A DNA stretch of 64,000 nt from Lampropedia puyangensis (lineage in GTDB: Bacteria > Pseudomonadota > Gammaproteobacteria > Burkholderiales > Burkholderiaceae_C). Of the stretch, positions 19,448 to 49,462 are shown piece by piece. The position numbers and the translations under genes are program-made. The notes under the pieces were generated by a model. The model was not told where the DNA came from, ran no database searches, and saw nothing but the letters and a program-made list of their open reading frames with translations. How positions within the stretch are numbered: the first letter of the stretch is position 1; every line of letters starts with the position of its first letter. The stretch lies in the NCBI RefSeq assembly GCF_004833285.1, contig NZ_STFG01000004.1, positions 124,001 to 188,000 on the forward strand, in the 5' to 3' direction.

Positions 19448-20332
19448 TTAGCCTTTAGCAGCGGCCATTTGCGCGGCCACTTCAGCCGCAAAGTCGTCAA
19501 CTTTCTTCTCAATGCCTTCACCCACCACATACAAAGTGAAACCTTTGATGCTGGTGTTCTTTTCTTTCAGCATTTGGCCAACGCTTTGCTTGTCGTTTTT
19601 CACGAAAGGCTGGTCGAGCAAAGACACTTCTTTGAGGTATTTAGCCACAGAGCCTTCCACCATTTTGGCCACAATGTCAGCAGGCTTGCCAGATTCAGCC
19701 GCCTTACCTTCAGCCACAGAGCGCTCTTTTTCGATCAACTCTGCAGGCACATCAGCAGAAGACAATGCCACTGGCTTCATCGCAGCCACATGCATCGCCA
19801 CATCTTTAGCGGCGGCTTCATCACCGTCAAATTCCACCACAACGCCAATGCGTGTACCGTGTAGATAGTGGGCCAATGCACTGTCTGTGAAACGTGTAAA
19901 GCGGCGCAGAGACATGTTTTCACCGATCTTACCGATCAAGCCTTTGCGCACTTCTTCAACAGTAGGACCAAAACCGTCTTGGCTGTATTCCAACTCGCTC
20001 AATGCAGCGATGTCGGCAGGATTTTTCAGCGCCACCAACTTGGCTGCCGCATTGGCAAACTGCAAGAAGCTGTCGTTCTGGCTCACGAAGTCAGTTTCGC
20101 AATTGACCTCAACCAGCGCGCCTACATTGCCTTCCAAAGCCACAGCGATCACGCCTTCAGCGGTCACACGGGAAGCCGCTTTACCAGCCTTGGTACCCAG
20201 CTTAATACGCAGCAGCTCTTCAGCTTTAGCCATATCACCATCAGCTTCCACCAAGGCTTTTTTCGCTTCCATCATTGGGGCGTCGGTCTTCGCACGAAGT
20301 TCTGCCACCATACTTGCTGTCACTGCAGCCAT
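19448..20332 (-). CDS. tsf: Elongation factor Ts
   Basis: EF-Ts exchanges GDP for GTP on EF-Tu. The N-terminal UBA-like domain ([25 protein letters not shown]) is followed by the conserved core beginning [25 protein letters not shown], including TDFV, which contacts EF-Tu. The length, 294 residues, is usual for betaproteobacteria. ATG 20332 has GGGAG about 9 bases upstream. It is separated from rpsB by a strong hairpin, as in many bacteria where tsf is expressed partly by read-through. Confidence 0.98.
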
Positions 20333-37027: not shown

Positions 37028-38578
37028 TTATTTTGCTGGCCTGATCAGCACATACTGCGCCCAATCATCGCGGTGAACCAAAACACTGATCGGACGCTTC
37101 GCATCGGCTTTACCCATCGCCTCGTTAAAGCCATTGACATCAAGAACTTCACGCTGGCCAACAGCCAAAATCACATCACCTGGCTGAATACCAGCCTGAT
37201 CTGCGGCACCTTCTACCGATACGACCCGCACGCCACCACGCACGCCCAAGGTTTTGGCTTCTCCTGTCGGCAAAGCTTGTACTGCAAGCCCGAATTCATT
37301 CGCTTTGGACTGTTCTTTGCTTGCGCCTTGATCCTGATTACTGGATGCATCTGCCGCATTGGCAGAATCGTCAGTCACCTCCTCAACGACCACAGGCAAA
37401 TCGACACTCTTACCATGACGGAAGACTTGCAGGGTATTCTTGCTGCCTGGTTTGGCGTTGCCTACCATACGCGGCAAATCAGATACGCTGTCCAACGCGC
37501 GACCGTTGAAACCGGTGATGATGTCTCCAGCCTGCACACCAGCCTTGGCCGCAGGAGAATCTTTCTCAACAGAGGCCACCAACGCGCCATTGCTACGACG
37601 CTCCAACCCTAAAGACTCAGCGACATCTGGATTGACGGGACCAATACGCACACCGATACGACCACGCACGACACGGCCCTTGTCTTTGAGCTGATCACTC
37701 ACTTTGATCGCATCATCAATCGGGATCGCAAAGGAAATTCCCATGAAACCACCTGAGCGCGAATAAATCTGGCTGTTAATGCCCACCACTTCACCGCGCA
37801 TATTCAGCAACGGGCCACCGGAGTTGCCAGGATTGACGGCAACATCGGTTTGAATGAAAGGCAGATAGCTACCCGTGTCACGTTGCTTGGCACTGACAAT
37901 CCCGGCTGTAACCGAATTGTCCAATCCAAACGGGGAGCCAATGGCCATCACCCACTCACCCACTTTGAGTTGCTCCACATTGCCAATACGCACAGCAGGC
38001 AGGTTCTTAGCCTCGATTTTGATCAAGGCAACATCAGTACGTTCATCAGAGCCAATCACTTTGGCATTGAACTCACGGTGGTCCGTCAAGGTCACAATGA
38101 CATCTTCAGCACCAGCCACAACGTGGTGGTTGGTCAAGATATAGCCATCCGAACTCAAAATAAAGCCTGACCCCACCCCGCTTGGTACTGTCCGAGACTG
38201 AGGCTCTGCAGGTTGCTGACCACGCCGCTGCTGAGGCATACCTGGCACAGGCAAGCCAAATTGCCGGAAAAATTCCAACATGTCATCGTCCATCCCCGGC
38301 ATGCCACGCATATTTCGGGTTGTCACTTTTTCGGTCGTACGAATATTGACCACGGAAGGCCCCACCTGATCTACCAATTGGGTAAAGTCAGGCAAGCCAG
38401 AAACAACCTGACCGGAGGCAGGCCCAACCGTCACCTGGCCGAGTTGGGCTTGGCTCGTGCCCGGATAAAAAGCTAATGCACCAGCACCGGCAAGTGCCAG
38501 TGCCGCCGCACTGGCAGCCACAAACTGACGTACCTGCAATGGCGCTTTCTTAGTCGTTGCTAACTGTTTGCTCGTCAT
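37028..38578 (-). CDS. degP: Periplasmic serine endoprotease DegP/MucD
   Basis: An HtrA-family periplasmic protease and chaperone that removes misfolded envelope proteins. The signal peptide is hydrophobic (AAALALAGAGALAF). The catalytic triad is His in TNHHVV, Asp in ERTDVALIKI and Ser in NPGNSGGPLL. Two PDZ domains follow, split by a Gln/Ser-rich linker (SSNQDQGASKEQSK). ATG 38578 is firmly supported by AGGAAG 6 bases upstream. It lies downstream of rpoE-rseA but is separated from them by a strong terminator at 38757-38796 and an AT-rich region with a palindrome, so it probably has its own promoter. Confidence 0.95.
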   Translation of the reverse strand: MTSKQLATTKKAPLQVRQFVAASAAALALAGAGALAFYPGTSQAQLGQVTVGPASGQVVSGLPDFTQLVDQVGPSVVNIRTTEKVTTRNMRGMPGMDDDMLEFFRQFGLPVPGMPQQRRGQQPAEPQSRTVPSGVGSGFILSSDGYILTNHHVVAGAEDVIVTLTDHREFNAKVIGSDERTDVALIKIEAKNLPAVRIGNVEQLKVGEWVMAIGSPFGLDNSVTAGIVSAKQRDTGSYLPFIQTDVAVNPGNSGGPLLNMRGEVVGINSQIYSRSGGFMGISFAIPIDDAIKVSDQLKDKGRVVRGRIGVRIGPVNPDVAESLGLERRSNGALVASVEKDSPAAKAGVQAGDIITGFNGRALDSVSDLPRMVGNAKPGSKNTLQVFRHGKSVDLPVVVEEVTDDSANAADASSNQDQGASKEQSKANEFGLAVQALPTGEAKTLGVRGGVRVVSVEGAADQAGIQPGDVILAVGQREVLDVNGFNEAMGKADAKRPISVLVHRDDWAQYVLIRPAK

Positions 38579-38696
38579 TACTACTTCCTCTTCAAACACT
38601 TGGATCTTCACTTTGGTAATCAACCTTGCATTTCTCGCTTTTCAGCAATTGAGAATTAAGAAATGAATTTCTTTTTTTTGTTCCTGCAATTACCAC

Positions 38697-38712
38697 AATA
38701 TTCATGAATATT
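38697..38712. promoter_or_regulatory. Palindrome AATATTCATGAATATT upstream of degP
   Basis: A perfect 16-bp palindrome lies about 120 bp before the degP start in a strongly AT-rich stretch. Partial repeats of its half-site follow (TTCATAAATA, TTCACATGAA). This fits an operator for a dimeric regulator or a curved-DNA promoter region. On the minus strand GGAACA in the same region could be part of an extracytoplasmic-sigma -35, but no good -10 partner is evident. Confidence 0.45.
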
Positions 38713-38756
38713 TTCATAAATACTTTTTATTTCACATGAATGTTGGCAAACGAATA

Positions 38757-38796
38757 CGCACAAAAAAGCCTGGCATTCACCAGGCTTTTTTGTGCG
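38757..38796 (-). terminator. 17-bp-stem terminator after rseA
   Basis: CGCACAAAAAAGCCTGG and its exact complement CCAGGCTTTTTTGTGCG surround a 6-base loop, 14 bases after the rseA stop. The A/T tracts make it work in either direction. It separates the rpoE-rseA unit from degP. Confidence 0.85.
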
Positions 38797-38810
38797 TGCG
38801 CTTTCAACAG

Positions 38811-39599
38811 TTAATTCGCAACAGAGCCATTTGCACTGGCATTGCGTAAAAAAGCCGCAGGAGGCTGCAGCGCAACCGTATTGCCATACTGTCGACTGAG
38901 AATCTCGTCCAATTTAGGGTCTCGAATCACAATACCTGTTGGGTTTTGCGCATCTTGATTAAAAGTAGGCGCAGCCGCACGGTTAGCAACAGCAATCACA
39001 TTCGGTGAAGGCATTGGCATTACAGCTGATGCCACCTCTGGCACCACTACACTCGGGTTGTCGTTGCTCGAAGCCAATTGCACGGCTTGGCCTGCTCCAC
39101 CACCTGTCAGCCCAGCAACACCGTTCCAACCTATGGCTGCAACAGCAGCCAAAGAGGCAAAACCTGCGACCATTTTCCAGCGGAAAATCGAAGCATTGGC
39201 TGCCTGACTCCCAGTCACCGTCACCGAGGTCAACTGAGGAGCTGGTTGCAAAGCCTGTACTTCATCCAAAGTGGATTTCACCGCTGGCTCTGCAGCCAAG
39301 CGCTGACGAAAGGTATGCAAGAAAGCAGCGCTGTCTGCTGCTGCATGGTTCTGCCCTGGCGCACGCAAACACTCACCAATAATCTGGTACGTTTCCCAAA
39401 CCGGAAAAGACGTATGAGGCACCGCATTCGACATGTTTTGCGCCTCCAAACTTTGCATTAGGCGATCGCATTCACTGTCTGACAATTCGCCATCAGCCAG
39501 TGCAGAAAGCAGCAACTCCAAGCTGCTGTTGTCCATATCCTTGTTAGCCAAAACATTCTTCACGTGGGGGGAAGATGGGGGGGTGTGCTGCACCTGCAT
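38811..39599 (-). CDS. rseA: Anti-sigma factor RseA/MucA
   Basis: RseA holds sigma-E inactive at the inner membrane until proteases, including RseP, cut it. The cytoplasmic sigma-binding domain starts at SLELLLSALADGELSDSE, a single membrane helix lies at about residues 143-164, and the periplasmic domain is short. ATG 39599 has GAGG 6 bases upstream. A later ATG at 39536 (MDNSSLELLL) matches the usual family start but has poor spacing. Between the two starts are runs of seven and six C in the coding strand. The gene lies 99 bp after rpoE. No rseB follows. Confidence 0.88.
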   Translation of the reverse strand: MQVQHTPPSSPHVKNVLANKDMDNSSLELLLSALADGELSDSECDRLMQSLEAQNMSNAVPHTSFPVWETYQIIGECLRAPGQNHAAADSAAFLHTFRQRLAAEPAVKSTLDEVQALQPAPQLTSVTVTGSQAANASIFRWKMVAGFASLAAVAAIGWNGVAGLTGGGAGQAVQLASSNDNPSVVVPEVASAVMPMPSPNVIAVANRAAAPTFNQDAQNPTGIVIRDPKLDEILSRQYGNTVALQPPAAFLRNASANGSVAN

Positions 39600-39698
39600 A
39601 CTGAACCTCAATTTGCTGAGAGGGCTCCACCACATGGAGTCACTCAATACCAGTCATCAATTACCAATTCCGACAAAAAAACCGTCGTATCTCCAGCC

Positions 39699-40328
39699 TT
39701 ACCATCGTTTACCGGTACGATTTTCCAAAAGCGGCTTGACCCTTGCAGAAATGGCCTCGCGCGCACGAAAAATACGAGAGCGAACCGTCCCAATAGGGCA
39801 TTCCATCGCCTCGGAAATCGCGTCATAGCTCAAACCATCAATTTCTCGCAATGTGATCGCTTGCCGCAAGTCTTCTGGCAAATCTGCCATCGCGGCGTTC
39901 ACTGCTTCGGCAACTTCTTTGGCTGCTAATACTGTTTCGGGTGTTTCTGCTGAAGTTAGTTCCATCAAGCCTGCAGAATTTTCATCATCATCGTCGCGAG
40001 ATCGCAAAGCACTTTCTGTCACCGTAGGGTTGCGCTTCATATCGCTGAGCGTTTTCTTAGCTGTGTTAACAGCAATGCGATACAGCCATGTATAAAACTG
40101 CGCATCACCCCGAAACTGATGCAAAGCTCGGTAAGCCCGAATAAACGTTTCCTGCGCGATGTCTTCCACCAAATCCGTGTCTCTCACCATTCTGCCGATC
40201 AAGCGCTCAATACGCCTCTGGTATTTAACAACCAGCAGCTCAAAAGCCTTCTGCTCGCCGGCCAAAGTCCGCTGAACCAACAGCAAATCACTTTGATCGT
40301 CACGGTTTGCCTGTGTTTTATCTGTCAT
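39699..40328 (-). CDS. rpoE: RNA polymerase sigma factor RpoE (AlgU type)
   Basis: An extracytoplasmic-function sigma factor for envelope stress. Sigma-2 is seen in LIGRMVRDTDLVEDIAQETFIRAYRAL and the -10-binding stretch YTWLYRIAVNTAKKTL; sigma-4 in LREIDGLSYDAISEAMECPIGTVRSRIFRARE. These are close to the E. coli and Pseudomonas proteins. Length is 209 residues. A candidate sigma-E promoter lies about 150 bp upstream, consistent with the autoregulation known for this family. The next gene on the strand is its anti-sigma factor. Confidence 0.96.
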   Translation of the reverse strand: MTDKTQANRDDQSDLLLVQRTLAGEQKAFELLVVKYQRRIERLIGRMVRDTDLVEDIAQETFIRAYRALHQFRGDAQFYTWLYRIAVNTAKKTLSDMKRNPTVTESALRSRDDDDENSAGLMELTSAETPETVLAAKEVAEAVNAAMADLPEDLRQAITLREIDGLSYDAISEAMECPIGTVRSRIFRAREAISARVKPLLENRTGKRW

Positions 40329-49136: not shown

Positions 49137-49166
49137 AAAAAAAACGCGCTATCAAACTGATGCGCG
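49137..49166 (-). terminator. Intrinsic terminator of the candidate small RNA
   Basis: On the minus strand GCGCG pairs with CGCGC, extended by GAT/ATC past a one-base bulge, and is followed by eight T (49137-49144). It lies about 130 bp before ruvB, and metK has its own terminator, so it must end some other transcript or attenuate ruvB. Confidence 0.7.
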
Positions 49167-49428
49167 CAATGTCTTATGTGCATGAACCCAGAAAAAGAAA
49201 AGGGCTGCGAGGCTACCTAGGGTGAAGATAGAGAGTGAGGGAGGAGAAGCACCCAAGGAGTCGTCAATTGGGCCAATCGCCCAAAAGCCTCGCAGCCGAA
49301 AATACATAAAGAGTCAAACACAAGCGATAGGAGTGATGGACGCATCAAAAAGTTCATACCGCATTGCGTGAAAAAACCTCTTCAAACATCTCAATCTGTA
49401 ATTGAAGATGTTCAGAAATCAGCCGCCA
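49137..49428 (-). ncRNA. Candidate small RNA with anti-Shine-Dalgarno loop, between metK and ruvB
   Basis: No reading frame of useful length exists here on the minus strand, yet all parts of a short gene are present: promoter at 49435-49462, structured core and intrinsic terminator at 49137-49166. The core is a three-stem junction. P1 is a perfect 12-bp pairing (49203-49214 with 49286-49297). One arm is TTGGGC/GCCCAA (49268-49284). The other is eight pairs with one mismatch (49216-49224 with 49250-49258), with a 25-nt loop of C and U on the minus strand containing CUCCUCCC (complement of 49239-49246). Such loops are known in regulatory RNAs that mask ribosome sites. Two overlapping hairpins near the 5' end (49386-49411 and 49379-49408) exclude one another. 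It could instead be a regulatory leader of ruvB. Confidence 0.5.
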
Positions 49429-49434
49429 TTTGGC

Positions 49435-49462
49435 ATTCTATCGACAAATTGCAATGCGTCAA
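49435..49462 (-). promoter_or_regulatory. Sigma-70-type promoter of the candidate small RNA
   Basis: On the minus strand TTGACG, a 16-base spacer and TAGAAT form one of the best promoter matches in the window. The predicted start is near 49428. No gene start follows for more than 400 bp. Confidence 0.6.

Follow-up and report, generated by a model that had tools for sequence, protein, structure and literature searches.

A single-copy small RNA gene of Comamonadaceae with a three-way junction and a putative anti-Shine-Dalgarno loop

What does the minus strand between metK and ruvB of Lampropedia puyangensis encode? The question arises from a 64,000-nucleotide stretch of its genome (the window; all window features named below lie on the minus strand), where a sequence-only reading had proposed a separate small RNA unit. 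That proposal is borne out by a junction fold, by covarying stems and by a conserved CUCCUCC motif, and judged by comparison with relatives, from which the gene, its structure, the conservation of its loop and an upstream promoter-like site all emerge, the stretch is a real small regulatory RNA gene belonging to a family. On balance we favour a free-standing gene, found family-wide in Comamonadaceae, for a trans-acting anti-Shine-Dalgarno (anti-SD) sRNA that would be induced by stress, most likely through sigmaE, and would display a pyrimidine loop on a three-way junction.

The conserved core of 104 nt (49298..49195) matches covariance model R1 over its full length (positions 1-102 of 102, 103.5 bits). 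With this model the core was found in 216 of 299 family genomes and in 100 of 126 genera, always as one match per matching genome, that is, as a single copy; named relatives place the family as Comamonadaceae. An order-wide sample of 399 genomes, searched with strict filters by which weak relatives could be missed, gave 12 matches, all within the same family; such filtering applies to all surveys of more than 40 genomes, and the E-values of the covariance model are rough. At closer range, BLASTN with the whole stretch under study hit 9 of 10 genus genomes with E-values of 1.7e-20 or lower, its own genome counted, with matches that cover the core and not the sigma70-like promoter described below. 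None of the 4227 models of Rfam release 15 matched the window, or the loci of 10 relatives, at or above its gathering cut-off, and a search of 619 bases at E up to 10 gave six sub-threshold matches (best E 0.24), all far below the cut-offs. Nor did full-text searches of an open-access collection find a description of the RNA. The RNA is apparently uncatalogued, a new family of a known kind, the anti-SD stress sRNA.

The fold first seen in the window, a three-stem junction closed by a perfect 12-bp helix, is indeed present, with 49297..49286 pairing with 49214..49203. The two arms of this closing helix (helix 1) are GGCUGCGAGGCU (5' arm, 49286..49297) and AGCCUCGCAGCC (3' arm, 49203..49214), and double changes occur in 11 of its 11 modelled pairs. 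Folding further predicts a small hairpin, UUGGGC-gauug-GCCCAA (49268..49284), and folding together with covariation supports a third one, CCU.GGGUG / CACCC.AGG (49216..49258), which presents the pyrimidine loop. The segment that holds the small hairpin, between the two other helices, was tested at 98 loci, and 97 of them have a predicted hairpin of 4 bp or more there; in the third hairpin (helix 3) all 8 of 8 pairs have double changes and 97.2% of cells are paired. Folding z-scores of -5.50 (121 nt) and -4.84 (131 nt) were obtained, with 0 of 200 shuffles equally stable in either case.

For covariation, 100 loci (97 distinct sequences) were aligned to the covariance model. Base-pair cells were paired in 96.8% of cases among the 97 sequences, as against 84.4% in shuffles and 39.4-46.5% in slid controls, and double changes appeared in 21 of 21 pairs, amounting to 295 cells versus 52 in shuffles; 0 of 500 shuffles reached as high on any covariation measure, in an alignment that is fitted to the model and hence leans toward structure. 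A seed MAFFT alignment of 26 sequences, not fitted to structure, had kept double changes in 12 of the 21 predicted pairs. The sequence-only reading had itself named covariation in relatives as a check, and there the stems do covary and the loop motif is kept instead of being lost. Its statement that the stretch carries no long reading frame holds as well: the two ORFs found across the core encode 51 and 46 aa; among the 100 aligned loci, the predicted short transcript of 70 contains no closed ORF beginning with ATG, and in 11 such an ORF reaches 15 aa or more.

The loop itself, CUUCUCCUCCCUCACUCUCUAUCUU, spans 25 nt by folding (49225..49249) and contains CUCCUCCC (49246..49239), so that the pyrimidine loop with an SD complement originally described is there. 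Among the 97 distinct relatives, CUCCUCC is kept in 95 and CUCCUCCC in 93, and each of the seven central loop columns holds a single letter in 92-97 of 97. The number of CUCC units per core ranges from 2 to 9 across relatives (3 in the window) and the longest pyrimidine run from 13 to 32 nt (13 in the window). In 84 pyrimidine runs of at least 18 nt, CUCC occurred 4.8 times on average versus 2.1 in shuffled runs, a comparison uncorrected for relatedness, and 52 of the 84 were individually unusual in their CUCC count. Because the units number 2 to 9 per core and are enriched over composition-matched shuffles, one may picture a multivalent anti-SD RNA under sigmaE that would act as a broad brake on translation at a large number of strong ribosome-binding sites under envelope or photo-oxidative stress, rather than as a repressor of a small set of targets, with an array length tuned by lineage; this extension is speculative, and we consider it unlikely.

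Transcription is where the sequence-only reading needed most revision. It had pointed to a promoter TTGACG-N16-TAGAAT, which is present as a sigma70-like site (49435..49462, by motif match) and may be at most a second, genus-level, distal promoter. Of 7 genus loci, 4 have such a site, scoring at least 10/12, in a comparable position 136-154 nt ahead of the core. Two of these four loci are near-identical sisters, a fifth locus has such a site elsewhere and two have none; when the four are shuffled, that score is reached in 1 to 14 of 200 cases, and taken by itself the window's site is no better than chance (3.5 kb contain 2 promoter-like sites, where shuffles predict 2.5). The family-wide promoter is instead, with strong support from motif comparison, an ECF/sigmaE-type site directly upstream of the core, in the window TGAACTT-N17-TCCTA (49328..49356), near-consensus at 9/11. 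In relatives this site often reads GGAACTT-N17-TCTA, from which the window departs by T for G in the -35 element and one extra base in the -10 element. A GGAACTT-N13-19-TCTA site of at least 9/11 lies in the 150 nt upstream at 71 of 97 loci, whereas downstream it is absent from all 97 and among 1940 shuffles it turns up in 129; the GAACTT..TCTA signature of a sigmaE-dependent sRNA promoter is thus found both at these 71 loci and, at 9/11, in the window. GGAAC occurs in the 120 nt upstream at 78 of 97 loci versus 5 of 97 downstream, and 19 nt after it T and C are enriched (50 and 56 of 77); 19 of 97 loci have no GGAAC upstream, among them the window with its TGAAC. The ECF-type site stands about 30-60 nt before the core, and 6 of 7 genus loci have GAACTT or a near form where it would be expected.

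Which sigma factor would read this site? Shewanella RpoE promoters have GAACTT and TCTA, and those of RpoE2-ChrR have TGATCC and CGTAAT (PMC4336711); the ECF-type site looks like RpoE's because its GAACTT and TCTA resemble the former, unlike the latter. A sigmaE operon of rpoE (39699..40328, TIGR02939 above cut-off), an rseA-like gene (39647..38811, Pfam RseA_N) and a DO-type protease gene (38623..37028, Pfam/NCBIfam) lies 9 kb from the RNA in the window (40328..37028). RpoE is the likely factor, through a link to the RNA that we infer; a different ECF factor may read the site instead, or some lineages may be controlled otherwise. Control by RpoE would come without autoregulatory support, since the upstream regions of rpoE lack the site: in 30 genomes a score of at least 9 occurred in 1 of 30 against 40 of 600 shuffles, with no enrichment, so that sigmaE autoregulation of rpoE was not seen in these genomes. 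Within coding sequence a score of 9 means little by itself: 26 of 30 genomes (L267, L275-L303) have a 9/11 ECF-type stretch inside rpoE, probably through codon conservation, which serves as a warning for motif scans. An exact GGAACTT-N16-17-TCTA scan of seven genomes gave 10 matches, 6 of them at the RNA, and 30 in the reversed control, and with six of the seven genomes chosen for their known RNA site only the scarcity elsewhere (4) is informative. In the window's own genome, GAACTT-N16-19-TCYTA gave 5 matches, one being the RNA, versus 16 in the control. Loci with a divergent MerR-B12 gene are more often without GGAAC (9 of 20 versus 10 of 77, p = 0.003; L212, L216, L223, L233, L235, L253, L258, L260, L261). 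Here the promoter may have changed hands, and no shared operator was evident in these nine loci.

The transcript map follows from these landmarks. Where a transcript from 49428 to 49137 had been drawn, the ECF-type site and the U-tract correct it to a main RNA of probably about 130 nt (49320..49190), whose predicted 5' end is set by the former and its 3' end by the latter. A U-tract follows the closing helix in both the seed and the large family alignments (window form CUUUUCUUUUUCU), and for this reason the closing helix, with the U-tract at 49202..49190 after its 3' arm, is itself an intrinsic terminator; the alignment thus also shows a U-rich 3' tail, a feature relevant to Hfq-dependent sRNAs. 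The eight-T terminator of the sequence-only reading does exist, as GCGCGCAUCAGUUUGAUAGCGCG-U8 (49168..49137), and by sequence reading it is a second, back-up terminator and not the main end. It was missed by a simple terminator scanner, and recurs in the closest relative (L177/L002) with stem letters that, by eye, are changed yet paired.

Taken as a mechanism, which we hold to be putative, an ECF sigma factor, most likely RpoE, would start transcription near 49320, and RNA polymerase would terminate near 49190, on the U-tract that follows the 12-bp helix. The expressed RNA would fold into the three-way junction, its closing helix doubling as terminator stem, and would expose CUCC units in tandem on a long pyrimidine loop. 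In stressed cells this loop would pair with SD-type GGAGG or GGGAGGAG stretches of target mRNAs and lower their translation or stability. Anti-SD pairing is the likeliest mode of action: the loop is conserved and pairing is plausible, and this much of the anti-SD function originally proposed stands, even though target searches at start regions were negative or empty. The perfect 13-nt complement before a start codon, GAGGGAGGAGAAG-N1-9-ATG, was found in 0 of 120 family genomes. In six genus genomes GGGAGGAG-N3-9-ATG gave 35 matches versus 10 in a reversed control, and among the 30 of 35 examined (by protein comparison for ORFs of at least 40 aa) there was no genus-wide recurrence, the 3 recurring gene pairs all being between two sister species. 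Porin starts gave no signal as targets of the loop: in a comparison of 30 of them with 152 background starts, their pairing with the loop was the weaker (-9.9 versus -12.2 kcal/mol). In the organism's own genome, a GAACTT..TCTTA stretch (G000:C15:19359-19386, L262) is followed, some 90 nt further downstream, by a GGGAGGAG..ATG at 19472-19491 (L335), where the ATG-started frame has only 34 aa.

The neighbours of the RNA vary, as is expected of a trans-acting RNA. The sequence-only reading had treated metK and ruvB as meaningful neighbours, a view that comparison does not support: metK precedes the RNA in 4 of 100 loci and ruvB follows it in 2 of 100, and a placement between these two genes is confined to close kin of the window. 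Of the 100 loci, 46 have an FAD-oxidase/DUF1365/CFA operon downstream of the RNA, 39 have purB there and 7 a CorA gene, and in 41 a glutathione peroxidase gene directly precedes the RNA, counts taken from flanks of 0.7-3 kb in which absences are soft. Names were assigned by eye for metK, purB, glnE, HD-GYP, RND, CorA and HPF, and by Pfam/NCBIfam for ruvB, gpx, FAD oxidase, CFA, DUF1365, MerR-B12, RseA, the DO protease and RpoE. A recurrent cluster in Comamonadaceae (L170-L261) has a ferritin-like and a MerR-B12 gene divergent from glutathione peroxidase, the RNA and FAD oxidase-DUF1365-CFA, and is similar to the photo-oxidative regulons known from Shewanella and Vibrio. The Shewanella RpoE2-ChrR oxidative-stress regulon includes a periplasmic glutathione peroxidase and cfa (PMC4336711), and the blue-light response of Vibrio is mediated by ChrR and a MerR-like protein (PMC5241685); given these stress responses, the commonest neighbourhood of the RNA is one of oxidative membrane stress.

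Several other readings of the locus deserve to be weighed against a trans-acting anti-SD sRNA. That the structure is fortuitous or an assembly artefact we give practically no credence: the chance-level sigma70-like promoter would suit such a view, and a chance origin is ruled out by the family-wide matches and the stem covariation. It is also very unlikely that the product is a longer, sigma70-driven RNA of about 290 nt (49428..49137), the ECF-type site being unimportant in the genus. That 4 of 7 genus loci share a sigma70-like site in much the same position, that the window's ECF-type site is off consensus and that the eight-T terminator at 49137 is strong all speak for it, yet GAACTT or a near form stands in 6 of the 7 loci, the sequence between the two promoters is unmatched by BLASTN even in the closest relative (where the match covers query 156-326), and the sigma70-like site and the terminators may simply coexist.

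The remaining two readings accept the family-wide RNA and differ over what it does. It might act in cis on the FAD-oxidase/DUF1365/CFA operon, as a leader or attenuator, its terminator setting read-through and its free copies being relics, as suggested by its place directly upstream (21-181 nt) and on the same strand in 46 of 100 loci, and by the rarity there of a second terminator under a simple rule (4 of 46 operon loci versus 23 of 54 others). We doubt this strongly, however: in the other 54 loci, among them the window, the RNA is not followed by the operon, and structure and loop are kept all the same, and pairing of the loop with the operon's start region is without excess (mean z 0.01, 44 of 46 loci tested), which leaves cis control through that region with no pairing signal. 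Rho, for its part, favours C-rich RNA, and a G-poor, C/U-rich loop could titrate such a pyrimidine-binder (Rho, S1, a cold-shock protein or Hfq) as a decoy under stress. This would fit the C/U dominance of the loop, with its runs of 13-32 nt, and target searches that gave no base-pairing target; we nevertheless think it unlikely, if less so than a cis-acting leader, because a protein that binds pyrimidines in general should allow C and U to replace each other more freely than they do in the nearly invariant CUCCUCC register (92-97 of 97 at each position).

By analogy, the anti-SD sRNA that we favour would work like cuckoo/CcsR, NmsR and other anti-SD sRNAs, and it would differ from them in architecture, copy number, promoter type and taxon; the kinship with cuckoo/CcsR or Neisseria RNAs suggested at the outset was not upheld, as architecture, named partner genes and taxon are different. 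The alphaproteobacterial cuckoo/CcsR RNAs (SmelA075, SmelA099; Rhodobacter CcsR1-4) are alike in being stress-linked and in their anti-SD loop motifs, the hairpin loops of SmelA075 and SmelA099 carrying CCUCCUCCC (PMC3927594). In the window CUCCUCCC is preceded by U and does not form that exact nonamer, and CUCCUCCUCC is found in 52 of 97 relatives. Cuckoo/CcsR RNAs have several similar hairpins or tandem copies, whereas here there is one junction with one motif loop in single copy, and in contrast to these alphaproteobacterial RNAs the present one belongs to Comamonadaceae and has an ECF-type promoter. Processing of a transcript that also carries the DUF1127 gene ccaF1, under RpoHI/RpoHII, yields CcsR1-4 (PMC10253847, PMC8307010); the recurrent neighbours named at our loci by eye and by Pfam/NCBIfam are other genes, and the promoter scan, run with an ECF-type motif, found an ECF-type site. 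The Neisseria pair NmsRA/NmsRB (NgncR_162/163) shares UC-rich unpaired segments complementary to target SD sequences (PMC5362039), but these are tandem siblings with three stem-loops under RelA control, as opposed to a nested junction with an ECF-type site and a single match per genome, with no sibling copies of the NmsR type. The enterobacterial, sigmaE-dependent MicA and RybB would share sigmaE control (PMC1804206); they repress omp mRNAs, whereas porin starts here are without complementarity to the loop, and there is neither sequence kinship nor an Rfam match. Agrobacterium PmaR, also alphaproteobacterial, is reported to act mostly positively, with a loop that is not an anti-SD region, and the available part of its description does not mention a junction.

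For the biology of the family, the commonest position of the RNA, beside glutathione peroxidase and a lipid-modification operon, ties it to oxidative membrane stress. Since it is kept in 100 of 126 sampled genera of this large family of environmental bacteria, with a near-invariant loop and its own stress-type promoter, it should be a core regulator, and it would represent a betaproteobacterial case of lineages independently reaching anti-SD loops in their stress sRNAs.
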